From: Absidia repens
Taxonomy: Eukaryota > Mucoromycota > Mucoromycetes > Mucorales > Cunninghamellaceae
Assembly (NCBI GenBank): GCA_002105175.1
Contig: MCGE01000021.1
Coordinates: 604,871-668,870 of the forward strand
DNA length: 64,000 bases
Reading direction: 5' to 3'
The position numbers and the translations under genes are program-made. This document shows positions 1,990 to 60,778 of the stretch, piece by piece (the first letter of the stretch is position 1; the number at the start of each line of letters is the position of its first letter). The notes under the pieces are model-generated. The model saw only the letters and a list, made by a program, of their open reading frames with translations. It ran no database searches and was not told the DNA's origin.

Positions 1990-2620
1990 CACATCCCGCC
2001 CACATGATTTTTGTTTATTTTCTCGCACTGTTTATTTTTTCCCCTTTCTTCCTTTCCTTTCTTTTTTTTTTCCCTGCTTTTTTCTTCATCATTACAGTCT
2101 CATCAAGGTTATTGTGACCTTAGATTAGTGTCAGGACTAGTTTAGAAGGGTTTGCAAATCAGGGATGACAACATGCATGGAGAAACCCTTTCATTTTGGA
2201 TCTAGGATCTTGAGGACACCATTAGTTGGCTTCATTCATTTAGTGTAGTGTTAGCTTTCCATATTTTATATCTGTATTTAAATAAAACATGTTTCTTTTT
2301 ACACGCTTCAATGAAAAAAAATGTCCCATTAGTTTCGCTCATGTCTATTAAAAAAAGATCCCTGTTTACCATCGCCTCATTAGATTAGCATTGACACCTA
2401 TTATGCTTCAATAAAAGATATTCTTTAGACTTTTTCTTGCCTTCAACATTAGAGTACAGTATATAAAATTCCTTTTCACAAATGTACCATTAAATTAGTG
2501 TTGACCAGTCTCCAGAACTCCTAGTAACCTCACTCTTGATAATTTCAATAGATCGCTTGTTACATTGACCTCTGCCTTCTTAGTTTAGAGTATATCATAT
2601 TGCTTCAATAAAGTATGTCC
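1990..2620 (+). repeat. Divergent copy of the R repeat family (subfamily R')
   Basis: It contains the family core seen in many copies: ggactagtttagaagggttt, then atgcatgg.gaaaccctttc and attttggatctaggatctt. Several 'ttcaataaa' stretches follow. Inverted copies of the same subfamily lie at about 11870-12250 and 16980-17590. No coding potential is visible. Confidence 0.65.
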
Positions 2621-4059
2621 TATTTATTGCTCCACCTGTGATTCATTATAAAACAAATACTGTCATTATTATAGCTGTTTTGTGCGTGTCCTGTCATATA
2701 CGTGCTTTCTGTCTAGGACACATTTATATCACCCTGACGACTATTTTCCCTACCGCTTTAACATACTTTATAGAACCAAAGCGCGAAACGGCAGAGGCGA
2801 CGGAAACAAAAATACTCTCCAGCGGTTTTTTGTTTTTCCATACACACATGCCTGTTTATTTTTTTCTACCCTCATATATACACAGTATACATTAAGTGAG
2901 GTATTGACCCAACAGCACAGTAAAAGATCATTTCTTTTTCACGGACACATACCCTCTTTTTTTCAAAACACAGAAACAAAAAAAAAAAAAAAACACATAC
3001 GCACGCACACACACATATATATATATATATATATGTCACACCCATTTGATAAGATATTTCTACGTATGAGAGAGATTACTGGTAACAATGGTAAATAGAT
3101 AAGACAAATTTTTATTTCAGATGCAGATATAAACTATGACAACGAATACTCAACCAAGTCATTAAAAGTTTCATAACAATCATTCAAGGTGAAGGACTCA
3201 TCTTATGGTGGGTCACAAAATCACGAATTCAAAATGAGAGAATTTTCTAACGATATTTGTATTGCGTTTAAAACGGTGCCCATTGATTCAAGTCTTGACA
3301 CCAAACCCAAGTCCACGAGTACATCATTGAGGTAGTATTAATGATGAGAAAAGAAAAAAAAAAAAAAAAACAAGAAAGAAAGAAATCAATGTGGGGCGGT
3401 GGCGTTGCAGTGTGTTGATAGTTTGATATATCAGTCGAAATTCATTCATAGATTGCTGAATATGGAAAATTGTCGACAGGAAGGTTTGCATAATGAAAAA
3501 AAGCCAGGATATTCTGTGTGACAAGTATGAGAGGTTGGAATGCCGATGGTTGTCCTTTTTTGGTTTAGCATGATTTGAAGGCAATGTCATTGTATCCCGC
3601 AAAGCTAGATTTCATGCCTATATAAAACTTGCCATGATGATCACAAGCTTTATAATAGGTGAACACTGCCACTACAAACTACAAGTACTATGTCAACTTT
3701 CCTGCGGTGGATAGAAAAAAAGATTTTAAATGATGAGCAATTATAAGATAAAATGATATGTAGACTTACTAAATATAATCATAACGGAGAAGTGTGAATG
3801 ATGTAAAATAGATGTAGAGAATAAAGGTAACTGTGTGTTTTGTATTGAAGACAAATATGAAGATTGTATATATTTGCTGCTTTGTGGGAAAGGAACTAAA
3901 ATCAATAGTGGGGATTCGATTTAGTAGGCGTCCGGCGGTGATTGAAAAGGTAGAGAGAAGGTAAATGCTCCAAAATTTTTTGATACTCCTTTTATTTTTT
4001 CTTTTTTATTTTTTCTTTATATACCTATGTCAATCTCAAAACGTAAAGATAGCAGTACG
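2621..4059. other. Intergenic region with simple repeats, no supportable gene
   Basis: It contains an A run at about 2979-2993, a (CA)/(TA) microsatellite at about 3001-3033 and an A run at about 3355-3370. Short open frames here are low-complexity and show no domain. Confidence 0.4.
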
Positions 4060-4545
4060 CTAGGCCTTCATCGAACGAGTATTCTCGGCCAAGTCCATAC
4101 ATTCCAATCTTGGGTAAAGATCCAGTCCTGTGATGATATTTTGAAAAAGAGAAGCGAATTCATCTAGTCGTCCTCCACTTACACGAAGTCTTGTATCAAT
4201 ATCTCCCAAAGCCATTTGAAATGTCTGATTGGTGTGGAACTTCATCTGGAATGCGAAGATTTGGAAAATTCGGTGGAGGTAAAATATACAAAAGGACTAA
4301 CAAATCAGCGATTTTGACGTCTTGTTCCTCAACTTTATGTGTTACTTAAACATAGGAATTAACACGACAAAAGAACCAAGTATGGCGCTCACCACGAAAT
4401 ACCAAAACTTCAAGAAAAGAAATATAAGGTAGGAAAATATAACGCGAACATTGTTTACCTTGTTGCATTGACTTTTTTTTTTTTTTGTCTTTTTAGGCCA
4501 ATGATTCCTTGTGTATTGGTGGATTGACTGGAACCCTTGGCTCAA
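4060..4545 (-). pseudogene. Possible remnant or exons of an unrecognised gene
   Basis: The minus strand carries a normally composed 61-residue terminal stretch (4245-4060) rich in charged and hydrophobic residues (M-A-L-G-D-I-D-T-R-L-R...), ending in a stop. Upstream, a second plausible stretch (E-E-Q-D-V-K-I-A-D-L-L) is in another frame with no convincing splice that joins them. It could be a real small multi-exon gene whose introns I could not place, or a relic. No family recognised. Confidence 0.3.
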
Positions 4546-4744
4546 ATGTGGTCAATTGGGGCAAGCAATAGAAGTAAAAAACTAATAAAGAACTGTACTT
4601 TTTGATGTAAGTTTATTAAAATAGCTATATACACTACTGTGTAACAATGCACTGATTTTCCTTTTTATTTGAGCCACCTTTACTATAGGCTAAGCTGGAA
4701 CGGGATCATGGACTTTTCAGACAGCTCCAATGACTTACAATTGC

Positions 4745-4910
4745 ATTTATTGAACAACGGGGAATGATTCATCTTTGATATTGATTGTAGACCAAGTGAA
4801 ACATAGCCAGTGTAAAGGTGTGCTGGTGAGTGACAAGGTACAATTGTTGGGTTGTGATGGATAACCGCGTACCTGGTATATGTGGATGATGCCAAATGGC
4901 AAATACGACA
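4745..4910 (-). mobile_element. Fragment of LTR family A
   Basis: It matches the outer half of LTR A (gattgtagaccaagtgaaac, tagccagtgt, gtacaattgttggg) and ends in AATACGACA like the complete copies at 23586-23951 and 51850-52209. The inner half is missing. Confidence 0.7.
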
Positions 4911-5075
4911 ACATGTACGACACACGCAATAATGATCAAGTAGAAAGGAAGTAACGCTCATGTATTGCGACTGATCCATGGGCTCACTGTAATCGAGGTA
5001 ATTTTTTGCATGGACCACATAGTCATACTCTAATCACTTTTGTTTTTGACACTTTTTTTTTTTTTTTTAATGTAG

Positions 5076-5237
5076 ATGATGTTAACCAGGTTGGAAGACA
5101 ATGTAGTGGAATATTCCAGGAATACCAGCAACAAGATGCGGACAATCATAGGCTCAAGTAAATCACAATCTCCTATCAACTTGGAAAACTGGATCTCAGA
5201 AGTACGATGGTTGCAAGGCTGGGTTATCTGGAAATGA
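5076..5237 (+). CDS. Short ORF, possible exon of an unknown gene
   Basis: An ATG-initiated frame of 53 residues with normal composition (N-W-I-S-E-V-R-W-L-Q-G-W) ends at 5237. A 12-bp-periodic gacgacgaaaac array follows at about 5238-5305; in another frame it would encode an acidic N-D-D-E repeat ending E-D-E-L. A second frame over 5074-5160 is also open. It may be one gene with an unseen intron. No family is recognised. Confidence 0.25.
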   Translation: MMLTRLEDNVVEYSRNTSNKMRTIIGSSKSQSPINLENWISEVRWLQGWVIWK

Positions 5238-5319
5238 AGAAAACGACGACGAAAACGACGACGAAAACGACGACGAAGATGACGACGAAAACGACGATGA
5301 AGATGAATTATGATTATAT

Positions 5320-7930: not shown

Positions 7931-7934
7931 TCCC

Positions 7935-7938
<4 letters not shown>

Positions 7939-7970
<32 letters not shown>
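7939..7970. repeat. (TA)n microsatellite
   Basis: About 15 uninterrupted TA units at the outer edge of the foldback element. Confidence 0.9.
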
Positions 7971-8802: not shown

Positions 8803-10849
8803 ATGACTAAAGAAGATCCAGTGGAACATCGCTTTCAAGGTATGTGATGGGCTCATAGGAAGAAAAATAAAATCAACAACAATGAATAACTCGACTTTAT
8901 TTTTTTTCGCAGAACTAACCTGTGACGCCACTCAACAGCAACAACAACAGCAAAAAAAATCATTTCAGGTTGTGCTTGTCGACATTGAAAAGGCTGGCAA
9001 AGATAGTATCATCCATTGTGTTGAAAAGCCACTGGACGAAGACACCGAGTTTGTTGCTTTATCTTATCGTTGGGGGGAATTACCTGAACATATAGTTGAC
9101 ACAAAATGCGGCTACATTGCATCTATCACGTCATTTGCCTTGGATGATTTTTATGAACTTTGTTCCTTCATGATGGAGGAACCCGACCTCAAATCGATCA
9201 AGTATGTTTGGGTGGATGCGATCTGTGTGGATCAAATCAACCACGAACGACGTAAAGCCACTATTCATCAAATGAGCAACATTTACGAAAAAGCTACGTA
9301 TATTGTGGCAGTCCCTGATCTTCACAGCCAATATTTGAGGAATGTATCGCAAGTAAATCAAAGAATCAGAAACAAACACAGAACATATTCCGATTATATT
9401 TATCACCTCCTTTACGGAAATATGGATAAGCTCGTTCAACTGGACAATGAATTTTTCGACAGCATCGACGTGCCAAAAGATCAGGTGCTAAGACAATTGC
9501 TGTCAAAATATAGCCATTGTGTTATGGCTGACCACCCAAGCAGTTATAATTTTGGCTTTGTTCCCCGTGCTGAGGCAATAGTTGAAGCATTATACGACGC
9601 CAGTCAAACCGATTCTCCGACCAATCATCATTCTTACGAAGACGCCACTACTGGGAAAATTCAAACACAGGCGGATCGCTACGCCTCTTTTGAGGATTTG
9701 TTTGATGGAATGGAACTCAAAATAGATTGGAAATCTTGCATAGTATGGCACGGCAAGAGAGATGACTTTGGACCAATATTGTCATGGAAGGACTTCCTCT
9801 CTAAAAGAAACGAAGATATCGCATATGTCATGGCTCATTTGGCAGATCTCATCATTGATTGGTCCTCTCGTGCTTGGGTGATCAGCGAATACCATATTGC
9901 AATGAAGAAAAACAACCTAAAGTATTGGTTTACTGAATTCCGAAGACGTCATGTCAAGGGTTTGCCATTTTTCAAATTTGATTTTAGAGCCTCCATCTCG
10001 TCATACGAAACGGAACCAGGAGGTGTTCGTGGGTATGTTATCGGATCTATGTTAATGGGATTGACGACAGAAAGCTTTCTTGAAGATATCCTGAACTCCA
10101 AGGCTAGTAAAAATGGTAGGTCAACTTTTTTTTTTGGGGGGGGGAGGGAGAGGGAACTGGCAGTAAATTTTATATTTTTTTATGAATATCTATGTGTAGA
10201 GGATCGATTTTACGCCATCTTGCCCCATTCAAAGTATGATGACAAAATCAACCAAGTGGCTGATTGGAAGATTAATACTATGACTTCTGTCAAGTTGAAG
10301 CTGTTCGAGATCATGAATGCCGAAGACAAGTTGAAGCTTTTGTTTTCAGTTGGGCAAAGCATAAATGTCATGTCTCAGCTAATACCAACATTTGCAACAC
10401 CGACAGTACACGTTTCCGATGCTTTTTTATTCTCTGGCGAGGTCGATTTGCCTAACTTGTTCAACAAATCCGCCATCTCAATTCATCATCGCGCTCATGA
10501 ATCGCAACTGTATCATTGTCTTCAGTTGACACCCAAAGGATATCGCGTGCAATCTAAACCCTATAATGAAGAGCTTCTTCAATATGCGAATACAAGAAAA
10601 GAAATACTATGCAGTCATCTTCAACTCGATGAGGACAGCTTGGAGATTGACTTTGTAAAACTCAGTTTCTTTGACCGACCACCATCATATTATCAAAGTG
10701 GGTACGGGTACCTTGACGTTGATATATATCTCACTGGAAGTTTTTTAAAAAACAAATGGATACTCGACTCTAGAGATATGCCAAAACGGTTGGACAAATG
10801 GGACTATTATGATAACAATAATACTGCCACCGTTTTTGATATCTATTGA
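8803..10849 (+). CDS. HET-domain (heterokaryon-incompatibility-like) protein, three exons
   Basis: Exons are 8803-8839, 8913-10115 and 10200-10849. Introns of 73 and 84 nt have donors GTATGT and GTAGGT and acceptors CGCAG and GTAG, giving 629 residues. The 84-nt intron is a multiple of three and open, so an unspliced reading gives a false insertion ending in a Gly-rich stretch. The N-terminal region (about residues 59-155) shows the HET motifs: F-V-A-L-S-Y-R-W-G, then Y-V-W-V-D-A-I-C-V-D-Q and M-S-N-I-Y-E-K-A. A short poly-Gln tract lies near residue 20. The C-terminal half is shared with the gene ending at 1373, so the two are paralogues on one strand. HET domains trigger incompatibility in ascomycetes; the role here is unknown. 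The start at 8803 is preferred because exon 1 splices in phase into the conserved frame. Confidence 0.88.
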
Positions 10850-11698: not shown

Positions 11699-11869
11699 TC
11701 AGCAAACAATTTCATTCGATAGCATAAGGCAGACACTTAGAGGTATAAAGAATGATCAACAGTAATTTAAAAGGACGTGTACCAAAAGGAATTTATTATA
11801 TATAAAGTATTGTACATGGCAGAAGGAAGACTGACGAGATATCTTTTACATAGCATACCAAGTCAACGC

Positions 11870-12250
11870 TAATCTAATGAGGTGATGGTAAAAATGGATC
11901 TTTTGTAATAGGCAAGAGTAAAACTAATGGAACATATTTTTTATTGAAGCAAGTAAAACGAGCCATGTTTTATTCAAATACAGATATAAAATATGGAAAA
12001 CTAACTCTACACTAAACTAATGAAGCCAACTAATGGCGGTTCTAAATCCTGAATACAAAATGAAAGGGTTTCGCCATGCATGTTGAAATCTCTGATCTGA
12101 AAACCCATCTAAACTAGTCCTGACGCTAATCTGAGATCCCCATGACCTCAAAGAGGTTGATAAAAAAAGAGGGCAAAAAAAAAGAAAAGAAGAAAGACAA
12201 AGTGAAAAAAAGCAAAGGGAGAAAAAATATTAAGAAATCATGAGACGCGG
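11870..12250 (-). repeat. R' repeat family copy, inverted
   Basis: It carries the complement of the R core (aaagggtttcgccatgcatg, then ctaaactagtcctgac) and the same flanking blocks as 1990-2620. Purine-rich DNA at 12160-12235 corresponds to the pyrimidine tract of the plus-oriented copy. Confidence 0.65.
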
Positions 12251-27513: not shown

Positions 27514-27875
27514 TGTTTGTATATAAGGACAAGAGTAAATAAGTGATACAATTGATATGGTTTTTTTTATTGAATAAAATGACAGTGGGTTTTTATAGTA
27601 AAAGCTAGGGGAAGCGGGTGTTGTAATAATAAATTTCTATGATGATAGATGATTGTAGATGATAATGGATTATTGGTAGAGTTCGAGATGAGGGAATAAA
27701 ATAGTATATTATGGAATAGATAGATGATTAACCTTTGATCTTGATTGTAGACCAAGTGAAACATAGCCAGTGTAAGGATATGCTGGTGAGTGACAAGGTA
27801 CAATTGTTGGGACACGATGGGTAATCGCGTACCTGATATACAGTATGTGGATGATGACAAATGACAAATACGACA
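27514..27875 (-). mobile_element. LTR family A copy
   Basis: It matches the family throughout and ends in TACGACA at 27875, exactly at the outer edge of the left arm of the 27.9-34.4 kb inverted repeat. No TSD found. It carries TACAGTA at 27839-27845 where other copies have TA. Confidence 0.8.
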
Positions 27876-34440: not shown

Positions 34441-34707
34441 TGTCGTACAGTATTTGTCACTTGTCACTAATCATTTGCCACACTATCACACTTGTCATTC
34501 CTATATAGGTATAACACACAGCCTCAAGTATCCACTACTTAGGCATACACACTTATATCTACAGACAACCCGCTTCTCATGGCCTCAAATTACCACAGCC
34601 ACAACTAGCATAGCCTTCCTTTTCCCATTTTATTCAATAAAAATTATATCTGTTACAGTATATCACTTATTTTTATAACGTCTTCTTGTTTTTTTATCAA
34701 TATTACA
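34441..34707 (+). mobile_element. Solo LTR of the A superfamily with 5-bp TSD
   Basis: TGTCGTACAG..AATATTACA flanked by gtcaa at 34436-34440 and gtcaa at 34708-34712. The middle differs from standard LTR A, while the last 60 bp (ataaaaattatatctgtt) match it. It carries TACAGTA at 34446-34452 where other copies read TA. Confidence 0.85.
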
Positions 34708-34717
34708 GTCAATCAAG

Positions 34718-35056
34718 TGTAATAATTTGAGTATAGGTAGAGTCAATCAAGTAAGTGATATAACAGATATCATATAATTTTTATTAAATAAAATGACAGT
34801 GGGCTTTTATAGTAAAAGTATGGGAAGCGGATGATGGAATAATAAATTTCTATGATGATAGATGATTGTAGATGCTAATGGATTATTGGTAGAGTTCGAG
34901 CTGAGGGAATAAAATAGCTTATTATGGAATAGATGGATGATTAATCTTTGATCTTGTTTGTAGACCAAGTGAAACATAGCCAATGTGCGGTTATGCTGGA
35001 GAGTGACAAGGTACAATTGTTGGATCATGATGGACAACCGCTTATCTGATACAGTA
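34718..35056 (-). mobile_element. LTR family A copy, truncated
   Basis: It starts TGTAATAATTTGAG and matches the family to about 35056. The outer end is replaced by the T run of the following R repeat. TACAGTA at 35050-35056 replaces TA. Confidence 0.8.
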
Positions 35057-35069: not shown

Positions 35070-35960
35070 TTTTTTTTTTTTTTTTTTGCTCATCGTAGTA
35101 TGTCCCGCCCCTGAAAAAAGTCTGGTTTGGTTTGAACCAAAACCAGAATCAGTTGGTATCAGATAAACCAGAAGGCCTGAAGAAGTAATGATGTATAAAA
35201 AAGGGATCTCTAAGAGGGATCTTTAAGAGGGATCTCTAAGAGGGATCTCTACAAGGGTCTCTAAGAGGGATCTCTACAAGGGTCTCTAAGAGGGATCTCT
35301 ACAAGGGATCTCCAAACTTCTAATCAAATTTAAACACACATTATTGAAGCAAATATGCATTTTTTCAAGCAAAGACATGTTGTTTCTCAAGCAAAGACAA
35401 GTTTTATTGAAGTAAACATACGTTTTATTGAAGAAAAAAAGACAAACTAAGCTAATCACGGCACCCCCAAAATCCTGGAATCAAAATGAAAGGGCTTCCC
35501 CATGCATCTTGTAATCCCTTTTCTGAAACCCTTCTAAACTAGTCCTAACAGAAGGCCAAGACCACCAGGTCCACAACGGGCCAAAAACCGTGACGAAAAA
35601 ATAATTTTTCATTAAAAAAAAGGAAAGAAAGAAAAAAAAGAGAGAGAAAATGGGAGATGCCGTTAGAAAAATAATTCAGGCGGAGCGGGCTTTGATTTTG
35701 AATCTCGTCACAAGAAATCTGAAGGCCCGTCAACAAACAAAAACAAATGCGGGAAAGCCTACAGCCGTAATAACAAGACTCTATGTTTCAGTATTGCTTA
35801 CAACATTATAGCATGTACAGTAGAAGCATTTACCGTACGAAATTGGTTTGGAAAATAGATCACCACACTATAGGGATACACTACCGAATGTGATGAATAC
35901 GAGACTGAATAAAGTAACTTTATTATAAAAAATAATAATGAGGAAGAAGCCGGAAAAACC
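35070..35960 (-). repeat. R repeat family copy with poly(A) end
   Basis: Read on the minus strand it ends in the family tail and a run of A (T16-18 at 35071-35087). Inside, a block of 'agagggatctct' units is repeated about eight times (35205-35315). It contains the core complement (aaagggcttccccatgcatc) and, further in, ccgctccgcctgaattat on the minus strand. Confidence 0.75.
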
Positions 35961-36586
35961 CAGTGGGTAAAAAAAACCTTGCTCTTAAAAAAAAGAGAAT
36001 AAAAAAATCATAGTCCAGTAATTAGATTTTACAAAGTCTAATTTCAGTACTAATAAAAAAAATCTAAATACTAGCTATCAATGTTGTGAAATTGGAATCC
36101 CGTTCAGGTACAAAAATAAAATTACATTTTATGTGTCAAATGTGGGAGTGTTGTATTTTGCATATGAATGTAGCAATAAAATAAAATAAAGTGCGACATT
36201 GATGTACAGTCGAGAAAGGTAGTTAAAAATGGGTCAACTAGCTTTCATTCTTTTTTTGGATAACTACTAAACCATCATCTTTTCTATATCAATTCCACTG
36301 TTTAAATCATGATTGACGATGCCCCTCAATGAGCAATACTCATTCAAACTCACATGGATTGGGAAGGTCCCGCAGCTGCAACCGCAAAACAAAAAAACTG
36401 CAAACCAGGTAAAGGAACTGGTGATGTTCTTCAAGACGGATCAAAGGATTCAGCAACGACTTCACAACGTGGCAAGTACCAAACACGAAACGATGAAAAG
36501 GTTGTAAAACTAATCAATCTTCTTACCGAATTTGGGCATCTTTCCATCAGGGACGGTGCAAAAATGGTTGGGCTACCTAAATCAAC

Positions 36587-37018
36587 TGTCGTATCATGAA
36601 TAAAAATGTTCTGCCTGAATAATCAGCAGAGCGGCATTTGAATAAATTCAGGTACCAATGAATCATTTATCCATTTCAAAACCAAACCAATGATCTCTAC
36701 ATAAGATATGAACATACACTTACAGTATCATGATTCTTTTTATTTGTAATCATTATGATATGATTTATAATCCTTATAAGAAAACCAATGAAAAAGTTTT
36801 CTTACTAGTTCCAATTGTATTAACACCATAATGATCAAATAACCAATATCATAGATTACCCGGTCTTAAACGTTATTTTATTTTTTATTTGTATAAATAG
36901 TCTCTAGTATTTTATTTTTATTTTTATCAACATTAATCTAAAATAAAGATAACAAAGAATCTCACTTATTTTCTTACGTCTTTATTTTTTTTTTTTTTTT
37001 ATTATCACAAACACTACA
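36587..37018 (+). mobile_element. Solo LTR, family C, inside the transposase
   Basis: TGTCGTATCATGAAT..AACACTACA, 432 bp. The left flank is atcaac and the right flank ttcaac, an approximate TSD (tcaac). Copies occur at 44980-45406 and 50606-51033. Confidence 0.85.
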
Positions 37019-37208
37019 TTCAACATCAACAGCTATCCGAAGAATCAAACAATGGAACGAATTGACCAGCAATGGGGAAGAAATGTATGTCATCACGAAC
37101 GAACATAAAGGCCGCCAATCCAAGCTTCTCGAGGAACATACGATATACATCTTTGAACAATTGAAACAAGACCCATCATTGACGACCCAGGAAGTGAAAG
37201 ATCGCCTA

Positions 37209-37215
37209 TACTGTA
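37209..37215. other. Putative excision footprint in the transposase
   Basis: TACTGTA where TA restores a continuous Tc1 reading frame for more than 45 codons downstream (to the TGA near 37367). Confidence 0.85.
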
Positions 37216-38242
37216 TGAAATGTATCCTGACATAAATATCACTCCTCAAGCAATCGGCAATCACATGCGCACACAATGGCATCTCACCTTCAAGCGTGTT
37301 ATACCCCATTATTTTGCTCGTGACAACAAAGAAACGATTTTGAAACGGCGTCAATCGGTAGAGTCATGACTGGAAGCTGGAATCGACTTCTTCAACGACT
37401 GTGTTTTTATCGACGAATCTGGATTTAATCGCAACATGCACCGATCGTATGGATGGAGCGAAGCTGGCAAGCCATGTAAACTCAAGGTTGAAACTAAAGG
37501 TCCAAATCTCAGCATTCTGGGCGCCATAACAAAGGACGGACTTCTTACGTTGTCGAAACGTGAAATTTGTGCGGCGACCTCGAAAAAAAGCGAAAGGCGA
37601 AGACACCAACACCTACTCCGAGCAAAGGGACATCCAGCGTTGATTTTTTGGAATTCGTCGAACAAACTAACTCTCACGGCAATCCGCGTTGCGGATTTCA
37701 AATACAAGTATCTAGTACTGGATAATGCGGCTATTCACAAGACACTGACGGTGCAAGACTGGATTCGCAAGCGTGGATACGAAATCATCTTTTTGCCACC
37801 GTTTTTGAATCCGATCGAAGAATTTTGGGCAAAGCTGAAGAATGTTTTCAACAAGGATTCAGCATCGATGGAAAAGAACACGCTTCATAGTGATCGTATT
37901 TGTAAGGCATCCGAATATATATCAAAGGAAGACTGTCAGGCTTGGATTAAACACTCGTTGACATTTTGGGATAGATATTTAAATTCTGGAGAAGGATTGT
38001 AGCTGTTATATTTTTTTTTTTAGTTATAGGATTGTAGTTTGTCTCATTTTTTTATAAAATAAAATAATGATTTTTGTCACATTTGTCTCATTTGTCATGT
38101 ATATTATTTTTATTTATTTAAAATGCTATGTCATAGTCAAAACCAAAATAATGTTAACAGCTATCTCAAAATTGGTTGATCTCTTTTCACCAACCTGGCT
38201 CACTTTTGCGGAGTTTGACCCAACCTAACTTTCTCGACTGTA

Positions 38243-39275
38243 AGTCATCCACGGAAGTAACAACAGTAGGAGTAAGAGAGAGAGGGACTTCAGCAGCAAC
38301 ACAATCTTCGCGAAACCAATGGAGAAACCGTCAACATCATCATCATGAGTGACTGAAGTAGTATGTTGACAAACAAAGAGTCGTATCATGAATAAGATAT
38401 GTTCTTCCAGAATAATAAGAGGAGCGGCATTCAAATAAATGCAGGTACCAATCAACCATTTACCCATTTCAAAACCAATATCATACATACTTTAAACAAC
38501 CCAGCAAGTCGTCATCCTAGTTCGCTTTCAATACTTACCATTTTCGGTAAGTAGAACACATTATCAGCAATAGCTCTGCTGCAAATAAAGATACAAACTT
38601 GAAAATACCACCATTCGAAAGAGCAACAAAAATCACATTTGGTGTAACATTTAATTAAAATCAAAGTTTTGTAAAACAAAATATAAAAAATGACAACTTC
38701 AATTTCATAATATATTTTTACACAAACTTTGATATTCTTGTATACCAACACATACGTACACTTATTCCTACAGTATACCTTAGTTCATGCATGCACATGC
38801 GATCATTCCATAAAACATAATTCAGACCTCGAATCACCCACTACACAAATTCCTATCATATTCATCACCCCAATTTTTACAGGCCCACATACCATCACAT
38901 CAGTATAAATAAGACAATACATTTGAATAGAAATAAAGAATTATCCAAGAGTTTCACAATACTTGATAACAAGTCCCATTTTATTTAATAATACAACAGA
39001 TATGATAAATTAAATTTAAGTTGTCATTACGTTCCATAACTCACAGGAATTAACACCTGTATGTACAGTATATAAGCTTAGGGAACTCAACAGATTGCCC
39101 AAAACATCGATAATTGCAGTATAAATAGCAATATAAGTTTTCCATAAAAGGTCGGCAAGTCAACTTGTGATTCATTCTGAGCCGATCAATGTTATTTCGG
39201 GCTCAAATAAACCTAGTTTTGGCATAGTACTGTAAATCAAACTTGAAGTTTGGCATGAGTGTCTATCTTGACCTT
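38243..39275 (-). mobile_element. D/E composite repeat, copy 1
   Basis: On the minus strand this copies the arrangement at 53028-54200. It has a short C-terminal coding end L-K-V-K-I-D-T-H-A-K-L-Q (39275-39240), an AT-rich LTR-like body ending in TCATGATACGA (38384), then the start of a frame with D-T-T-S-V and an Asp-Asp-Asp run. It abuts the right end of the Tc1 element. Confidence 0.6.
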
Positions 39276-40877: not shown

Positions 40878-41172
40878 AGGAACTATTTGTGATACCCAAA
40901 CCTATTTCCCATCTTCCACATCTTTATTTATTTATACCCGCTCCGCATTTCTTCATTTTGACATTTGACAGGTACTACCCTATACCTTACTTTATTCATA
41001 CTTTGTCACCCGCTAAATTATTCCCCCAACTTCATTTCAGATTATTCCAATTTGTAACCATTTCATTATGACTCACTTAGCTATAGGAAAAGATATAAAT
41101 ATGACATGTTTGAATATTAAATAAAAAGAGTAACCAATTGTATCACTTACTTACCTTTGTGTTTATTTCAGT
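40878..41172 (+). mobile_element. LTR family H, copy 1
   Basis: It shares gtgatacccaaacc, ttatttataccc and gtatcacttac with the copy at 48765-49055. It contains a tataaatatgac box and an AATAAA signal near the end. It reads cacttagct where copy 2 has a 5-bp insertion. Confidence 0.75.
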
Positions 41173-41399: not shown

Positions 41400-42322
41400 G
41401 TTTGCAGATCCCCTTTGGAGATCCATTTTGCTTGTAGACTAGCTTTTAGATTTTCTTTCCTTTAGTATAATATTGATTATGATGATTCAATAAAAGTTTT
41501 TTATTTTGCAATGAACAATGGGTGACAAATCTATTCTACTGTGTTAGACTAATCTGCATACTAATGTACATGCTATTACTGTATACAGTACTGTGGTAGT
41601 CTATTATATATACTACAGTATTCTTGTTTGGTAGTGTATCCCTATTGTGTGGTGATCTATTTTCCAAACCAATTTAGTACGGTAAATGCGTCTACATCCT
41701 ATAATGTTGTAAGCAATACTGAAGCATAGGGGTTTGTTATTATGGATGTAGGCTTTCCCGACTTTGTTTTTGTTTGTAAACGAGCCTCCAGATTTTTCTG
41801 TGACAGGATTGAAAATCAAAGCCCGCTCCGCCTGAATTATTTTTCAAGCGGCATCTCCCATTTTCTCTCTCTCTTTTTTCTTTCTTTCCTTTTTTTTTTA
41901 ATGAAAAATTATTTTTTCGTCACGGTTTTTGGCCCGTTGTGGACCTGGTGGACTTGGCTTTCTGGTAGGACTAGTTTAGAAGGGTTTCAGAAAAGGGATT
42001 ACAAGATGCATGGGGAAACCCTTTCATTTTGATTCTAGGATTTTGGGGGTTATAGTGATTAGCTTAGTATGTCTCTTTTCTTCAATAAAACATGTCTCTG
42101 CTTCAATAAAATTTGTCTTTAATAAAACCTGTCTTTACTTCAATGATGCGTGTTTAAACGTCATTAATAGTTTGCAGATCCCTCTTAGAGATCCCTCTTA
42201 GAAATCCCTCTCAGTGTGCCATCGTAGAGATCCCTTTTTAATACATCATTCCTTCTTCAGGTTTTTTGGTTTTGGCTCAAATAAACCAGACTTTTTTGGG
42301 CGGTTGTTTTTTTTGGGGGGAG
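41400..42322 (+). repeat. R repeat family copy (long)
   Basis: One of the longest copies: upstream block (caataaaagttttttatttt, ctgtgttagactaatctgca), then gcccgctccgcctgaatta, the core (ggactagtttagaagggttt, gcatggggaaaccctttcat), and 'gatccctctta' units at 42175-42240. It ends near accagacttttttgggc. No coding frame is conserved among copies. Confidence 0.8.
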
Positions 42323-44292: not shown

Positions 44293-44754
44293 TGTCGCAT
44301 CATGAAAAATGATGGCATAAAAATAAAAGCTGTTCCTGAAGAAATTGAAATTCCGATTAGGAACACTGCATGATAAAAATAAATAATCACGCAACATTGT
44401 GATAGAAGAAAAGAAAATAATGATTCACTTCATGAAATCATTAGGTCCCATAAAATAGAATAAAAGAAAATAAAATACCCTTGCAATAACATCAATCATA
44501 TCACCATACACCTAATATCAGAACATCATACGATCATAATAAAAATAATGATCATGATAAAAAATAATAATAACAATAAACCCATGTAATATCTATTTCT
44601 AATGAAACATAAGATATAGTATATAAAGAGTGACATTTTTATTAATAAAAACCATATACAAGAATCTCACTTAATTCTAACTGTCCCACTTTTTATTTTC
44701 TACTTTTTATTTTTTTTATTTTTTTATTTTTTTCTTTATATACACCATTTTACA
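44293..44754 (+). mobile_element. Solo LTR, family G, inside the gag-protease gene
   Basis: TGTCGCATCATGAAAA..CATTTTACA, 462 bp. Flanks atacc and atatc are a near-perfect 5-bp TSD. The host frame continues across it. Confidence 0.85.
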
Positions 44755-44979: not shown

Positions 44980-45406
44980 TGTAGGGTTTGTAATAATAGA
45001 AAAATAAAGACGTAAGAAAATAAGTGAGATTCTTTGTTATCTTTATTTTAGATTAATGTTGATAATAAAAATAAAAATAAAATACTAGAGACTATTTATA
45101 CAAAATAAAAATAAAATAATGTTTGAGACCGGATAATCTATGATGTTGGTTATTTGATCATGATTGGTGTTAATACAATTGGAACTAGTAAGAAAACTTT
45201 TTCATTGGTTTTCTTATAAGGATTATAAATCATATCATAATGATTACAAATAAAAAGAATCATGATACTGTAAGTGTATGTTCATATCTTATGTAGAGAT
45301 CATTGGTTTGGTTTTGAAATGGATAAATGATTCATTGGTACCTGAATTTATTCAAATGCCGCTCTGTTTATTATTCAGGCAGAACATTTTTATTCATGAT
45401 ACGACA
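44980..45406 (-). mobile_element. Solo LTR, family C
   Basis: TGTAGGGTTTG..TACGACA, 427 bp, close to the copy at 36587-37018. The flanks do not match, so recombination or deletion followed insertion. Confidence 0.8.
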
Positions 45407-47250
45407 CTCGGTATTGTGGTAGTGCAGTATAATTGTAGTTGGGTATCGCTATGGAATGGTCTTGATTGAAAAAAAGAGGGGATTGCTCCATTTCAGAGGA
45501 TTTTCAGAGGCTTCAGAGGATTTTCAGAGGATTTTCAGAGGAATTTCAGAGGATTTTTCAGAGACCGTCCCGTACCACCTTTATTGTATCACCGGTAATT
45601 AGCAATTTAAACAAGCTTTGTGACATTAGCAATAACAAAGAAATTGACACTTACTTCTTTACCTCTTTTCACCATATTGTTTGGCGCGCTATTGTTTCTA
45701 TTTGTTATGACTAGTCATCTTCCAATTGGAGAAATCTATACTTATCAAAGAGTATGGTCGAGGATGTCAAGCATTGACCCTCTCGTTGCAGATTTATTCT
45801 ACCGAATAAACGTATTGCAATACAACACTACTTCTGAGTGTATCCGATAATATAAACAGCAACGACAACAATGATTAACGCAATTATTTTCTAGAAATTA
45901 TAACTAAGGACAGTATCATAGAACAAGATTACATGATTTATGGTCGGATCATGGCTATGGAACCTACTAGTTGGCATTCTTAAACGATCATGTAAATTGG
46001 CGACAAAATTTACAAAGTAGATGATAGGCATAAAAGGATGGTTGACTTGTAATTTTTCAGTTTGGATAGGAAAATGACAAACAGCATATATACTTCCATT
46101 TTTTCAGCAGATTGACTCACCTGAGCAGTACTAATTATCAGGACTCTCAAAAAACGTCTATTGAAAGATCTGTCAAAAAACCCATTATAGTCACCACCGT
46201 CTACAATGGAATCACCAATTGAAACATAAACTTTGCCATCGGTTCCACCGCCTCCTCCTTCAGTATCGAATTTAGCACTATCACCAACTACACCTTTACT
46301 AGTAACCCATCTTTATCAAAAGGCAACACCACCACTAACAACCACCAAGGCAAAAACGATCATCAAGCACTATTACCAAAAAGTCCGTCATGAGGAAAAT
46401 ATATGCCAAACAAATTTCATTCCAAAACAAAAATGATAATCATGATTTTTATTTTTATTTTTTTAAAGCATTACTGTATCGAATAGACAATGCCAATTTT
46501 TTATATCGCTAATGTCACAAAGCTTGTTTATCTGATAGTTATCGGAGATACAATAAAGGTGGTACGGGACGGTCTCTGAAAAATCCTCTGAAAATCCTCT
46601 GAAATGGAGCAATTCCCTTTTTTTTTAAAGAAAAAAGATTGGACCATTTGTTCCTAGAAAATCGGTGATAGTATGGTAGTGGATGAATAAATAAGATAAT
46701 GCGTGTTTATTTCATAATTATATAGTCAAAAAGAAGATCATAATTGATTCTTGTATAAAAAATGAAGACGCGACCTGTTTTTGGGATTGCTGGCGGATCT
46801 GGAAATAGGATTTAAGTAAGGTCTAACGGATTTTTTATGAAATGGGCCCACCAATGATATCATTGACTTCAGAGGATATAATGAATGTAGACTTCCCGGT
46901 ACGAACCCTGTTTTTTTTATAGACAGCAGAAAACTTTTTTTTTGAAAGATAGCAGGAAACCCCTTTATTTTGAAAGAGAGCAGCAACCTTTTTTTTGATG
47001 GATACTGTAGAAGGACCAACTTTTTGTTTGATAGATAACAGGAACCTCCTTTTTTTTGAAAGATAGCTGGAGCTTCTTTTTTTTAAAAAATAGCTGGAGC
47101 TTTTTTTTTTTGAAAGATAGCAGGAACGTTTTTTTTATAGACATCAGGAATCCTTTTTTTTGACAGGCAGCTGGAACACCTTTTTTTGGATCTCCCTCTT
47201 CTTTTTCTTTTCACGGAATGCCTTCATCAGATCTCCAAGGATTCAGGCGA
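45407..47250 (+). repeat. S repeat family, copy 1, split by a T1 element
   Basis: 45407-45477 and 46618-47250 together match the S copies at 59161 and 60779 (ggtatcgctatggaatg..cttgatt, then gaaaaaagattg.acc and gatcat.attgattcttg). The 3' part is a run of 'ttttttttgaaagatagcag' units (46915-47175). Confidence 0.7.
45478..46617. mobile_element. TIR DNA transposon remnant, family T1 (copy b)
   Basis: Inverted ends gggattgctccatttcagag and the complement at 46600-46617. The TIRs extend about 140 bp through gaccgtcccgtaccaccttt and the attgtatc..cgg block to aacaagctttgtgacatta. Inside, short frames and a Thr/Pro-rich segment mirror copy a (5962-6772). Short 'ttttcagagga' units repeat near the left end. 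No intact transposase. Confidence 0.75.
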
Positions 47251-48764: not shown

Positions 48765-49055
48765 TGTTGTATTTGTGATACCCAAACCAATTTCCCATCT
48801 TCCACATCTTTATTTATTTATACCCCGCTCCGCATTTCTTCACTTTGACATTTTGACAGATACTACCCTATACCTTACTTTATTCATACTTCATCACCCG
48901 CTAAAATACTTCCCTAACGTCACTTCAGATTATCCCAATCTGTAACCATTTCATTATGACTCACTTACTGTAGCTATAGTAAAAGATATAAATATGACAT
49001 GTTTGAATATCAAATAAAAAGAGTAACCAATTGTATCACTTACTGACCTTTGTGT
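48765..49055 (+). mobile_element. LTR family H, copy 2
   Basis: TGTTGTATTTGTGATACCC at the start. It closely matches 40878-41172 but has TACTGTA at 48966-48972 in place of TA at 41078. Confidence 0.75.
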
Positions 49056-49959: not shown

Positions 49960-50320
49960 TGTCGTATTTGTCATTTGTCATCATCCATATATATCAGATA
50001 CGCGATTACCCATCGCGTCCCAACAATTGTACCTTGTCACTACCCAGCATATCCTCACACTGGCTATGTTTCACTTGGTCTATAATTAATGTCACAGATC
50101 AATCATCCATCCATTCCATAATACACTATTTTATTCCCTCATCTCGAACTCTACCAATAATCCATTATCATCTACAATCATCTATCATCATAGAAATTTA
50201 TTATTCCAACATCCGCTTCCCATAGTTTTACTATAAAAACCCACTGTCATTTTATTTAATAAAAACCATATCTGTTATATCACTTATTTGATTGACTTTA
50301 CACCTTTACAAATTATTACA
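49960..50320 (+). mobile_element. Solo LTR, family A, with 5-bp TSD
   Basis: TGTCGTATTTG..AAATTATTACA, 361 bp, flanked by caaca (49955-49959) and caaca (50321-50325). Reference-quality copy in plus orientation. Confidence 0.92.
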
Positions 50321-50605: not shown

Positions 50606-51033
50606 TGTTTTTGTATGATAAAAGATACAGTAAAGACGTAAGAAATAAGTGAGATTCTTTGTTATCTTTATTTTAATGTTGATATTGATAATAAAAAAAT
50701 AAAAATAAAAATACTAGAGACTATCTATACAAATAAAAATAAAATAACGTTTAAGATCGGGTAATCCATGATGTTGGTTATTTGATCATAATTGGTGTCA
50801 ATACAATTGGAACTAGTAAGAAAACTTTTTCATTGGTTTTCTTATAAGGAATATAAGTCATATCATAATGATTACAAATAAAATAATCATGATAAGTGTA
50901 CTGTATGTTCATATCTTACGTAGTGATCATTGGTTTGGTTTTGAAATGGATAAATGATTCATTGATACCTGAATTTATTCAAATGACGCTCTGCTTATTA
51001 TTCAGGCAGAACATTTTCATTCATGATACGACA
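50606..51033 (-). mobile_element. Solo LTR, family C
   Basis: TGTTTTTGTATG..TACGACA. It differs from the other two copies by reciprocal presence/absence of the TACTGTA heptamer (see findings). It begins directly after the end of LTR B. Confidence 0.85.
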
Positions 51034-51446: not shown

Positions 51447-52217
51447 TGTAAAAATAAGATGAGAATGTTGTTACTGTACTTTTTATTTAATTAATTAATA
51501 AAAATGTCACTCTTTACTGTATATACTATATCTTATGTTTCATTGGAAATAGATATTACATGGGTTTATTGTTATTATTATTTTTTATCATCATCATCAT
51601 CTTTATTATAATCGTATGATGTTCTGATATTAGGTGTATGATGATACGATTGATGTTATTGCAAGGGTATTTCATTTTATTTTCTTCTATTTTATGAGAC
51701 CTAATGATTTCATGAAGTGAATCATTGTTTTCTTTTCTTCCACCACAATGTTGCGTGATTATTTATTTTTATCATGCAGTGTTCCTAGTCGGAATTTCAA
51801 TTTCTTCAGGAACAGATTTTATTTTTATGCCATCATTTTTCATGATGCGTGTAATAATTTGAGTATGGTAAAGTAATTCAAGTATGTGATATAACAGATA
51901 TGGTTTTTATTAAATAAAATGACAGTGGGTTTTTATAGTAAAACTATGGGAAGCGGATGTTGGAATAATAAATTTCTATGATGATAGATGATTGTAGATG
52001 ATAATGGATTATTGGTAGAGTTCAATATGAGGGAATAAAATAGTGTATTATGGAAGAGATGGATGATTAATCTTTGATATTGATTGTAGACCAAGTGAAA
52101 CATAGCCAGTGTGAGGTTATGCCTGAGAGTAACAAGGTACAATTGTTGGGTCATAATGGATAACCGCGTAAATGATATGTGTGGATGATGACAAATGACA
52201 AATACGACAATGCGACA
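51447..52217 (-). mobile_element. LTR family G copy split by an LTR A
   Basis: 51447-51849 plus 52215-52217 match the copy at 53657-54065. It has TACTGTA at 51514-51520, where the copy at 44293 reads plain TA. Confidence 0.8.
51850..52209 (-). mobile_element. Solo LTR, family A, with 5-bp TSD, inside LTR G
   Basis: TGTAATAATTTG..TACGACA, flanked by atgcg at 51845-51849 and at 52210-52214. Confidence 0.92.
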
Positions 52218-52844: not shown

Positions 52845-53070
52845 TATCGTAACAACTGTGATGAAGATACTCTCTTTTGTTTTCATATATTGGTATTTGA
52901 GGATCTTCCAACATTCAACACGTTATGTGACAAGTCTGATGTTCGTGGTCGAATCCAAATGGTTCTCTGTGGTATTGGTCCTGGACATGGATATGATTTT
53001 GGCGTCTCACTTCTTTGTGCGTTGAGGTTGAAGGTCAAGATAGACACTCATGCCAAACTTCAAATTTGAT
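52845..53070 (+). pseudogene. Coding fragment ending in the shared L-K-V-K-I-D-T motif
   Basis: A frame reads F-E-D-L-P-T-F-N-T-L-C-D-K-S and G-I-G-P-G-H-G-Y-D-F-G-V-S, then A-L-R-L-K-V-K-I-D-T-H-A-K and a stop. The same end occurs at 39275-39240 (minus) and, as L-K-V-R-I-D-T, at 54482-54510. It is probably the C-terminus of an unidentified transposon protein. Confidence 0.4.
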
Positions 53071-53656
53071 TTACTATGTCAAAATTAAGTTTATTTGAGT
53101 CGGAAATAACACAGTTTATGCTCCGCACAATTTAAAGTTGATTTGCCGACCTTTTTTAAACAACTCATATTGCTATTATGTTGCAGTTATCGATGCTTTC
53201 GACAATCTGTTGAGCTCCTCGAGCATACTGTATATACACACAGTAATTGGTTCCTAATAGTTAGAGAACGTTATGACAACTTTAATTTAATTTAAAACAT
53301 CAAAATTTGTGTAAAAATATACCATGAAATTGAAGTTGTCATTTTTTATATTTTATTTTATAAAACTTTCGATTTAGCTTTGATTTTAATTAAACTGTAA
53401 CACATAATGTGGTTTTTGTTGCTCTTTCGAATAGTGGATTTTCAAGTTTGTATCTTTATTTGCAGTAGAGTTATTGCTGATATTACTGAAAATGGTAAGT
53501 ATTGAAAGCGAACCGGGGTTACGCCTTGCTGGGTTGTAGAGGTATGTATGTATGATATTGGTTTTGAAATGGGTAAATGATTGATTGGTACCTGAATTTA
53601 TTTGATTGCCGCTCCGCTTGTTATTCTGGAAGAACGTTTTTTATTCATGATACGAC
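53071..53656 (-). mobile_element. LTR-like body of D/E composite repeat, copy 2
   Basis: Inverted relative to 38384-39240 (gcaaatcaac.., aatacttaccattttc complement). It ends in TCATGATACGAC, where LTR G has inserted. Confidence 0.6.
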
Positions 53657-57310: not shown

Positions 57311-57479
57311 TGGATCTGTAGAATAGTATACATTAGAATACCTCATTCTTCATTCATGAATAAAACCTTTTTTATTGAAACATCGCTAAACTTAAGTCAC
57401 TAAACTAAAGGGAGGGGAGTGAAAGGATCTCGGGAGCAGTCGAGGGATCTTGAGGGATGTCGTGAAAAAAAGAGAGAGA

Positions 57480-57875
57480 TAGTTCCTTTTCCAAAAAATA
57501 CCTGCCCACAACCCCCGCCCACAAAAAAATACCCCGCAGAACCCGCCCTAAAAAAATACCCCGCACAACCCGCCCTAAAAAAATACCTCCCTCAACAACT
57601 CCCAAAAATAAAACCTCCCCCCACAACCCCCCAAAAAAGACCTCCCCCACAACCCCCCAAAAAAGACCTCCCCCCACATCCCCCCAAAATAAAGTCTCCC
57701 CCCATACACCCCCAAAAAGAGGCCTCCCCCCATACCCCCTAATATAATGTCTCCCCCCATACACCCCCAAAATAATGTCTCCCCCCATACACCCCCAAAA
57801 TAATGTCTCCCCCCACATCCCCCCAAAATAATGTCTCCCCCCATACACCCCCCATATAAACTCACAAAAAAAACA
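57480..57875. repeat. C-rich minisatellite, about 28-bp unit
   Basis: Units such as aataatgtctccccccatac plus acccccaa recur, grading leftwards into caacccgccctaaaaaaata units. On the minus strand the array encodes a Gly-rich repeat (G-G-D-I-I-L-G). That strand begins with M-I-R-T-I-F-Y-R-T-V-G-R, also found at 63529-63495. Confidence 0.85.
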
Positions 57876-58269
57876 AACGAAGTGGCGCTTGCGGGATAGG
57901 CTACGGGGAGAATCTCTGCCTACGGTTCTATAGAATATTGTTCGAATCACGATGTAGAATTTTATTTTGTATTTATTTTGTTAAATTTGAATATGAGTAT
58001 GAATAAGATTTTATTATTACCAATTATAGTAATTTAAGGCAATTTCCTTTTAATATTATATCGACTGAAAGGAGATTTAATATTAAAAGTAACCAGACGA
58101 ACTAATAATAGAATTTTAACATTAGATATTATAGACTCTCTTTTTTTTTTTTTTTTTTTTTATTCGACTGAAAGGAGAATAAATAAAAAAAAAAAAAAAA
58201 ACGAAAAAAAATATAAATATAGAATTTATTATATGAGAATTTAAGATTTACTATTATAATTTCAGATTT

Positions 58270-58302
<33 letters not shown>

Positions 58303-58520
58303 CTTTTTTTTTATTCTAGTATTCTGTACTTGAATTTTAAGTTTAGGCTTAGGAAATTAGGTTTTATGTTATGTGTTAGGGGTATGGATTTAGAGTTTTA
58401 CATTTAGGCTTTTTGGTTTAGGGTTTCTGTTTTCGATTTTGAATTTAGGGTTTTTGGTTTTTTTTTTTTTTTTTTTAGGGTTTTAGGTTTGGGTTTTGGG
58501 TTTTGGGTCTTGGGCACTTC
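57876..58520 (+). repeat. Subtelomere-like module, copy 1
   Basis: It starts with cccatataaactcacaaaaa and cgcttgcgggataggctacg. It continues through AT-rich DNA with cgactgaaaggaga, long T and A runs, and ends in degenerate ttagggtttt / ttttgggttttggg units (58370-58515). Copy 2 begins at 63425. Confidence 0.8.
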
Positions 58521-59160
58521 AAACTGGAGACTCACTAGAAATAATTAAGCTAGAGACATGAAATAAAGTGCATTGGATTCGTAGAGAGGAGTAGTACAGG
58601 AACCCAGTTTAAAGTTACTCAAAACCTTAACCAGAAAAGGAGATATGACCGATTTAAGTTTGAAATTTTTTTTTTGCAGTTCTGGGGAAATTGGTTAAAT
58701 CTAAGAATATAGTGTCAAAAAAAGTTCAAGTAAAGTTGAAACTCCGACGGAGATCGAATATGTCACTGCCATTACTGTCAGATTTACTGAGATTGCATGA
58801 TTGTAGGAATATGCTTTGTGTTCACATTCATGCATATCGGGCATTGAATTTAGCCCGAGCACTACGTTTCAGGAACGGTTTTTAATTTATTTTTTTCAAA
58901 GTGCAATGAATTATTCTGCAATATAAGCCACAGTAGGATGGAAGATCTTACTTGGGTATAGTGTAGACCAATGCCAGGAAGTCAGATTGGATGTTGAATG
59001 ATGTTTTGGGATCAACTGAGAAATCAAAACGAAGACGAAGAAAAAGTTGCAGATGAATTGAGCAATGAAGAGAATGATGTATTTGTTGTTGACTAAAGGA
59101 ATGTCAAGGCGTGGAAAACAGGGAGGGAAATAATATTTATTTATTGAGTAAAACAAAAAG
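58521..59160. other. Spacer after the subtelomere-like module
   Basis: A short plus-strand frame (58691-58885: L-P-L-L-S-D-L-L-R-L-H-D-C, H-A-Y-R-A-L-N-L-A-R-A-L) follows an acceptor-like tttttgcag at 58679. It has no recognised family and may be an exon relic. Confidence 0.25.
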
Positions 59161-59750
59161 TGCCGATTCATGCTAAAAATTCACTCCCAGCTTTCATGCT
59201 CTGCCGATAATATTTTCCTTTTTGAGTAAAAAAAAAAGATGTCTATGTCAATGATATTAATAAAGGACGGTCATATTGAATATAATTGTGGACTGGGTAT
59301 TGTGATATTACTGTATAATTATGGTCAGATATCGCTATGAAATGATCTTGATTTAAAAAAAAAGAAGCACTTTCGAATTAAAAGCAGGAAAGATAATGAA
59401 GCAATTTCAGAACATAAGACTTGCATTTTCTTTTTTGAAGGAAAAAAGATTGAACCATTAGTTCTTAGAAAATAGGTGATAGTATGGTAATGAATGAATA
59501 AATAAGATCATCCGTTTTTATTTAATGATTATATAGACATAAAGAAGATCATCATTGATTATTGGGTAAAAAAAAAAAAAAAGGGCACCTGGTTCTGGGG
59601 TTTCTGGTGGATCTGACGATCTGAAGATGAATAGTTCCACCAATGATATTATTGACTTTGAGGATATAGTGAATGTAGACTTCCCAGTATAAACGTCTTT
59701 TTTGATAGGCAGAAGGAACTTTTTTTTTTTTTTTTTGAGTGACCTCCAAT
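59161..59750 (+). repeat. S repeat family, copy 2
   Basis: It matches 60779-61325 (gattcatgc.aaaa.attcac, tattttcctttttgagta, gatatcgctat.gaatgat). It is followed directly by an R copy, as in copy 3. Confidence 0.75.
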
Positions 59751-59754
59751 GGAT

Positions 59755-60377
59755 ATTTTTTCTGAATTATTTTTAAAGCGGCATACCCCATTTCTCTCTC
59801 TCTTTCTCTTTCCTTCCCTTTTTTTTTTGACAAAAAATCATTTTTTCTTCATCGTTTCTTGCTCGTTGTGGACCTGGTGGTCATGGCTTTCTGTTAGGAC
59901 TAGTTTAGAAAGGTTTCAGAAAAGCGATTACAAGATGCATGGGGAAACCCTTTCATTTTGATTCTAGGATTTGGGGGATGTCGTGATTAGATTATTTTGT
60001 CTCTTTTTTTTCAATACAATTTGCCTTTGCTTCAATAAACTTGTCTTTGCTTCAATAAAACTTGCCTTTACTTCAATGATGTGTGTTGAAGTGTCAGTAA
60101 AAGTTTGCAGATCCCTCCTAGAGATCCCTCTTAGAAATCCCTTTTAGTGATACCTCTTAGAGATCCCCCTTAGAGATCCCTCTTAGAAATCACGCTTACA
60201 GATCCCTCTTACAGATCCCTCTTAGAAATCCCTCTTAGTGATACATCGTAGTTTTTTTTTTTTTTTTTTTTTTATTCATCATTCCTTCTTCAGGCCATTA
60301 GGTCGAACAGAAACCAACTGATTTTGGTTTTGGCTCAAACCGAACCAGACTTAATTTTTCAGAGGCACGCTACAATG

Positions 60378-60420
<43 letters not shown>
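59755..60420 (+). repeat. R repeat family copy with poly(A) tail
   Basis: Core at 59895-59970, a run of 'gatccctctta' units at 60105-60240, then the 3' end tttcagaggcacgctacaat and gagc plus about 40 A. Confidence 0.8.
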
Positions 60421-60424
<4 letters not shown>

Positions 60425-60778
60425 TTGCGAGAGAGGTACAGTATCGAGATGATGAGGAAAAATGAGTTGCATTTTTCCATTTCAAGTTATCCGAACAGCA
60501 GGAGTTTTTTTTTACTGGTATTTAAAGATGCGGGTACATTTACAATATGTAAATTAACTGTGATGCAACTAGTGTCCAATAAACAAATGATTCATGATAT
60601 TGATACTACGTACTGTAAACAAATGATTCATCATGTTGGTACTACGTACTGTAAACAAATAACAATGATGATACTGAAGGGAAATAGGAACGACAGGTTA
60701 GTAAAGTGATGCAATTGGAACGACTGCAAAAAAATAATGTAATCACTAATGGTTATCCGGCTAAATATTGTTAAAAAA
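60421..60778. other. Spacer with a 36-bp tandem duplication
   Basis: tactacgtactgtaaacaaa and tgattcat recur around 60604 and 60640. Otherwise nothing is recognised. Confidence 0.4.

Follow-up and report, generated by a model that had tools for sequence, protein, structure and literature searches.

Dispersed TACAGTA/TACTGTA heptamers in Absidia repens: probable excision scars of Tc1/mariner elements, single and in tandem ladders

Why should a single seven-letter word recur dozens of times, in unrelated surroundings, within one stretch of fungal DNA? The stretch in question, called the window here, comprises 64,000 bp at the end of a contig (MCGE01000021.1, positions 604,871–668,870; contig C14) of the mucoralean fungus Absidia repens, whose assembly has 47.4 Mb in 79 contigs, and the words TACAGTA and TACTGTA (jointly TACWGTA, unstranded) are dispersed in it from 2455 to 60653. 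A transcription-factor-like protein encoded in the genome shares 88% identity, across 87% of its length, with a protein of Absidia cylindrospora, which places the host among the Mucorales near Absidia. The exact plus-strand count was 30 TACAGTA and 27 TACTGTA, reproducing the total of 57 which an earlier note had obtained by eye, while the chance expectation of about 15 guessed there was too high: dinucleotide shuffling gave a mean of 6.71 (standard deviation 2.47) with 15 as the maximum and none of the 100 shuffles reaching 57, and an order-2 Markov model predicted 8.1. The observed number is thus far above both expectations, and an excess was also present genome-wide. The control word with a G/C centre, TACSGTA, stayed at the chance level (4 observed, 3.2 expected); a random motif was ruled out by the shuffles and this control. 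When the heptamers of the window were ranked by z-score, each pooled with its complement, TACWGTA came third, below two A-rich words. No common sequence was found in the 30-base flanks of the 57 heptamers, only a leaning to A/T, indicating that the word does not mark the border of a single repeat. Most of the excess is best read, with a probability of about 0.92, as scars left by the excision of CAG-tipped Tc1/mariner elements, with an additional, less certain layer that may come from one clade targeting a G-TA-C core.

Each heptamer was aligned, with 120 bp on either side, to the window and to selected genome loci, all scar evidence coming from one assembly with states compared between paralogues. 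A paralogue spanning the site was found for 25 of the 57 heptamers, the remaining 32 being uninformative, and at 13 sites the copies differed cleanly as plain TA versus TA-CWG-TA, the sequence pattern of Sleeping Beauty-type scars. All on the plus strand, these putative scars include TACAGTA at 34654..34660 (plain TA in four paralogues), at 35816..35822 (plain TA in the copies at 41.7 kb and 56.4 kb) and at 41614..41620 (plain TA in two paralogues), and TACTGTA at 39228..39234, 48966..48972 and 51515..51521, with plain TA in the paralogues 53025-53192, 40959-41171 and 44505-44649, respectively. Two adjoining scars, TACTGTA-TACAGTA (41577 and 41584, spanning 41577..41590), represent a 10-bp double gain: both units are missing in the paralogue at 48.0-48.3 kb and, in one of two alignments, in that at 56.1-56.4 kb. 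The remaining sites, 27839, 35050, 36721, 37209 and 50899, are considered below.

The pairwise comparisons put forward in the earlier note were re-examined. Its LTR H pair (long terminal repeat; 48966 versus the copy near 41078) and its R pair (35816 versus the copy near 41.7 kb) are both separated by an exact 5-bp TA/TACWGTA gap, and so is its LTR G site at 51515, albeit with the paralogue lying at 44505-44649 and not at 44293. The LTR A pair was seen by eye, as TGTCG-TACAGTA-TTTGTC at 34446 and TGTCG-TA-TTTGTC at 49960; the paralogue search aligned nothing there. Among the other heptamers with paralogues, the alignments were ambiguous for 2455, 39064, 48263 and 53226 and too poor for judgement at 46472, 47003, 49697 and 50626, and 28429 and 33854 each have the heptamer. 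A probable scar, TACTGTA at 59309..59315 (plus strand), differs from the paralogue 60809-61049 by a 5-bp gap and one substitution. The census of window self-alignments contained 225 distinct gaps, in which the 5-bp class (n = 20) exceeded its 4-bp (n = 5) and 6-bp (n = 3) neighbours, and the scar accounts for 8 of the 20, with 48263 and 59309 scored among these eight.

The direction of change was clearest in LTR family A, of which 31 copies were aligned. The scars TACAGTA at 27839..27845 and 35050..35056 (plus strand) each occur in one copy only, at TAs 2 bp apart, and a diverged family member in locus L053 has its own private scar at a different position. Plain TA was kept in 26 of the 28 alignable copies, so the scar is the derived state there, which opposes the converse outcome of an ancestral heptamer reduced to TA by deletion. 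A second family, an LTR-type repeat of about 440 bp, is multi-copy with mostly 89-97% identity, and one copy (36587..37025, plus strand) is nested in the Tc1 element of the window. Among 23 aligned copies, CAGTA followed one particular TA in 16, a point-mutated form of it was present in 4, 2 had CAGTA at a TA a few bases off and 1 had neither. The TACAGTA at 36721..36727 in the nested copy is apparently identical by descent to that at 45266..45272 in another copy, and the scar at 50899..50905 (all plus strand) would be independent, at the neighbouring TA, with L046 as its sole other carrier among the 23 copies. We read this as two separate scar gains, the repeat having carried one of them into further copies, with the direction inferred in this family.

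The excess is genome-wide, and the window is not special in having it, although its heptamer density is about three times the genome mean. The whole assembly contains 14,011 TACWGTA, whereas the reversed word, ATGWCAT, occurs 10,593 times and TACSGTA 3,556 times. In a non-random 200-kb sample (loci L009-L028, 20 pieces of 10 kb at round coordinates on 11 contigs), 52 TACWGTA were observed against 21.9 expected under order 2, the corresponding expectation for TACSGTA being 13.2. The claim that the heptamer is absent from exons was checked in part, using stop-free frames of set length, not gene or intron models. For frames of at least 150 codons it held in the sample, with 5 heptamers inside against 6.3 expected and 47 against 15.8 outside, but not strictly in the window, where 5 of the 57 (24671, 26020, 43032, 43064 and 44182) lie inside such frames against 1.0 expected, and 52 against 7.3 outside. 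The frame holding 44182 has a weak Ty3-capsid match slightly under the curated cut-off. The excess is therefore most pronounced outside long frames, yet not confined there. As a separate observation in the same sample, the word CTAAACTA occurred 33 times against 4.3 under order 4, and TAAACTA/CTAAACTA possibly belong to a dispersed short repeat.

Candidate sources are resident in the genome, in which 41 stretches matched the DDE_3 domain. Tc1 copies on contigs C38, C40 and C67 show 0 differences over 1366 bp, have ends matching at 18 of 18 bases (CAGTAACCTACT...) and an open frame of 351 aa, and such identity suggests recent movement. Relatives with transposases 58-63% identical have the tips CAGTAGGCTACC (L075) and CAGTGCCCTAAC (L101), and more distant CAG-tipped families are represented by L052, L102/L103 and the element of the window. 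TA flanks both sides in 12 of 12 tabulated elements; the search for element ends demanded TA, and for L053, L074, L075, L101, L102 and L103 the terminal repeats were recovered without this requirement as well. Both DDE_3 and HTH_Tnp_Tc3_2 domains were detected in L049, L053, L075 and L101, whereas L052 and the element of the window showed just DDE_3. The DD34E signature, a D placed 34 residues ahead of the E, is present in L049, L075, L101, L052, L053 and L102. Joining the flanks of L049-L052 without the element yielded no usable empty-site paralogue among the loci compared. L052 itself (C79:1463200-1467200) is a CAG-tipped transposon of 1975 bp with 18/18 matching ends. It occupies the exact midpoint of a palindrome, and for at least 819 bp the two arms show no difference. 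Another Tc1-type family of 1650 bp (L053 and L074, two copies 99% identical) has terminal repeats of about 215 bp and CAC tips (CACTGG), from which TACACTA/TAGTGTA scars are to be expected; these two words were found 18 times in the window against 7.7 under order 2, and none of the twenty 5-bp gaps in its self-alignments was of the CAC type.

The window has one resident of its own, a defunct Tc1/mariner-type element at 36207..38240 (plus strand) with a DDE_3 frame at 37370-37999 and the ends CAGTCGAGAAAG / CTTTCTCGACTG next to TA on both sides. The CAG-type termini claimed for it in the earlier note were borne out: the TA-flanked ends CAGTCGAG...CTCGACTG match at 16 of 18 terminal bases, with the tips CAGTC. 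The 34-residue spacing between D and E was not seen in this element (spacings 31 and 40). The copy is broken, and the search, whose counts are lower bounds, turned up a single further copy, itself partial (C46:69855-71441), which makes the element unlikely to be the main source of the scars. It was hit itself: within the transposase coding region, TACTGTA at 37209..37215 (plus strand; the window reads CCTATACTGTATGAAA) stands where the paralogue L117, the one additional copy found, has CCTATATGAAA. A 5-bp scar in such a position means that excision of one element can help to inactivate others.

The scars are not only dispersed but also stacked. Genome-wide, scars sharing a TA (TACWGTACWGTA) occurred 855 times as doubles, 233 times as triples and 64 times as quadruples, compared with 26, 1 and 0 for the reversed-pattern control and with about 53 doubles expected by arithmetic from the frequency of CWGTA after TA in the sample (0.0038). 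Other close spacings, with 0-10 bases between the heptamers, gave 603 matches or, after subtraction of the 233 triples, about 370 over 11 spacings. The shared-TA counts correspond to 622 ladder sites (chains of at least 2 units), of which 169 extend to 3, with the count ratio being about 0.27 from there on. The two unit types, CAG and CTG, are intermingled roughly to the degree predicted for independent events: 24 of the 50 doubles listed (all on contig C1) were mixed and 26 homogeneous, and 13 of the 50 triples listed were homogeneous against 12.5 (25%) expected, both scored by eye. The flanks read at 30 loci (31 ladders) were mutually unrelated, apart from a poly-A stretch in L088 and L092 and the pair L078/L116, copies of a dispersed repeat whose common TA holds 2 and 3 units; the comparison of ladder with ladder was complete, and that of ladders with other loci covered the matches listed. 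A further copy at 2455 in the window has one unit and a near-unit (by eye). This dispersed repeat, present at 2380-2640 and 11740-11950 in the window and in L009, L014, L019, L078 (within L009) and L116, has a single TA with 0 to 3 units, and thus offers a natural series for ladder growth. The window contains no shared-TA double (smallest spacing 7; about 1.2 expected at the genome mean), and a four-unit ladder is located at C14:602512-602533, about 2.3 kb ahead of it.

The ladders direct attention to where the elements insert. For the DD34E clade associated with the scars, 14 element sides were counted, from the two-ended L049, L050, L051, L075, L101 and L106 and the single ends L104 and L105; L076, L097, L099 and L100 were dropped, having no two-ended terminal repeat under the criteria, and L098, a defective relative between two ladders, was excluded because its left tip is deleted and it lies inside a ladder; its right flank would read C too. 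The first base outward of the target TA was C on 14 of 14 sides, with CWG on 7 and the full CWGTA on 4, and 4 of the 6 two-ended elements directly adjoin a complete scar. For comparison, six elements of other families had C at +1 on 2 of 12 sides, and the 31 ladders had C at +1 on 36 and G at +3 on 25 of 62 sides. A ATATATAT-like target, typical of Tc1-like targeting of AT palindromes, was thus not found for this clade, with its C at +1 on every side.

Taken together, the excess of the word, the exact 5-bp CWGTA gain, the 26/28 polarity, the contrast with long frames and the presence of CAG-tipped residents support the excision-scar reading proposed in the earlier note. Excision of Tc1-like elements involves three-base overhangs joined through an A/A mismatch. 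By analogy with Sleeping Beauty, from which the cutting and joining chemistry is inferred, a CAG-tipped element would insert at TA with duplication of the TA; at exit, its transposase would cut three bases inside one strand at each end, leaving a CAG overhang on each flank, and joining of the overhangs by the host with repair of the A/A mismatch to either CAG or CTG would convert TA into TA-CWG-TA. A second layer, which we favour with some reserve, may come from the one DD34E clade that appears to prefer a G-TA-C core, often CWG-TA-CWG, and to revisit its own scars. A scar starts with C, which follows one TA, and ends with G, which precedes the next; the G-TA-C core is thereby recreated, and ladders are explained without extra assumptions; the clade could return to its scars and build (CWGTA)n ladders, one unit per visit. 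Whether the transposase actually homes to its own scars, preferring CWG-TA-CWG as the very sequence left by its excision and using scars as safe landing sites, stands in our judgement at even odds. A minority of the heptamers is due to chance or substitution.

Several observations weigh against the scar reading. The enrichment of TACWGTA in the sample is just 2.4-fold, less than that of TAAACTA (3.5-fold, 87 against 25). With the limit lowered to 100 codons, heptamers are in excess inside frames as well (19 against 10.3 in the sample, with 33 against 11.4 outside; 16 against 2.6 inside in the window), showing that the heptamer does not avoid coding frames altogether. Of the 25 heptamers that have paralogues, 48053 and 48145 differ from theirs by substitution (TACCGTA/TACCATA and CACAGTA) with no 5-bp gain, and these two are unlikely to be scars. 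In the self-alignments, moreover, 12 of the twenty 5-bp gaps are not scar. The scars were read in a single assembly, paralogue against paralogue and not against filled sites. Overlapping units of one ladder recur among those listed and are therefore not fully independent. Finally, the 13 clean window scars have C at +1 on just 4 of 26 sides (by eye), from which it follows that at least two element groups are involved; as the window also has no shared-TA double, its scars probably come mainly from CAG-tipped families other than the G-TA-C clade.

Of the other explanations for the word itself, a functional motif (a binding, splicing or promoter signal) under selection might be suggested by the palindromic nature of TACTGTACAGTA and TACAGTACTGTA and by the enrichment outside long frames in the genome sample as well; it is very improbable and, for the aligned repeat copies, appears already refuted, since the exact 5-bp gains are present in some copies only, one of them within a transposase region, and CAG and CTG units in ladders are mixed as if at random. 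Least probable of all is the possibility that the heptamers are degenerate element ends with CAGTA tips and no scars. The clade tips CAGTAACC/CAGTAGGC do make TACAGTA at each end, but the 57 window flanks share no tip sequence, and a search of the window for paired CAG ends found just 36207-38240, with its CAGTC tips. As a source of the window heptamers, element tips were ruled out by the flanks.

For the ladders, the same mixing of units bears on the idea that they are microsatellites, in which one scar was multiplied by replication slippage. Among the 50 quadruples listed, 11 were homogeneous against 6.25 expected (p 0.05), a surplus which weakens the case for independent scars and makes some slippage within ladders possible; the mixture in 24/50 listed doubles and the 13/50 homogeneous listed triples are, however, as for independent units, and resident elements adjoin scars. 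Slippage is accordingly improbable, and as the main ladder origin it was ruled out by the unit mixing. A stronger competitor, although still rather unlikely in our view, is that certain TA sites are hot by nature (through chromatin or DNA shape) and, being hit repeatedly, could produce ladders with no preference of the transposase for scars as such. A dispersed repeat whose copies hold 0, 1, 2 or 3 units at one TA (by eye, among the matches listed) would fit such sites, as would the extension of 169/622 chains to 3 with the ratio then steady at about 0.27, as for a hot subset. On the other hand, the clade sides read C in 14/14 and CWG in 7/14 despite differing surroundings, and the 855 shared-TA doubles greatly exceed the approximately 370 matches over the 11 other close spacings.

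Two further features of the window are a frame of 680 aa at 8807-10846 that contains a HET (heterokaryon incompatibility) domain, a domain rare outside Ascomycota, and a T-rich tandem repeat of irregular structure (family D3) at 61414-62050, in which the spacers are of the AGGAA type.

The scars resemble those of Sleeping Beauty and other CAG-tipped Tc1-like elements in the TA target, the CAG footprint and the TAC(A/T)GTA form. According to the passages cited, Sleeping Beauty leaves TAC(A/T)GTA (PMC3432063, PMC4378557) and has a CAG footprint (PMC8151067). Its preferred target, like that of ZB and Bari, is ATATATAT-like (PMC7913693), in contrast to the clade described here, which appears to favour G-TA-C with CWG; these passages make no mention of tandem scars. 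For fungi, impala of Fusarium oxysporum is described as an active Tc1-type element (PMC2874221). The likeness lies in the activity of a Tc1-type element in a fungal host. As general background, impala leaves scars of this kind, its host belongs to a different fungal phylum, and the element is not known to form ladders. Excision products were likewise read from genome sequence for rice DNA transposons, where 8 of 94 excisions left exactly two target copies and the others had deletions or filler (PMC4423477); unlike that survey, the present search started from the canonical word, and its counts cover regular excisions alone. No open-access report of tandem Tc1 scars or scar-targeting was recognized by title or abstract opening among the matches listed, which is weak evidence of absence, as subscription literature lies mostly outside that search.

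Single scars are textbook knowledge. Thousands of canonical scars together with ladders in one genome make past excisions and re-insertions countable without living elements. If the homing is true, the ladder length n would count visits, making it a transposition odometer readable from one assembly, and about 2,300 loci (622/0.27) would be estimated to have been visited by the clade. The scars and ladders also provide a test of whether a transposon can steer to harmless sites of its own making.

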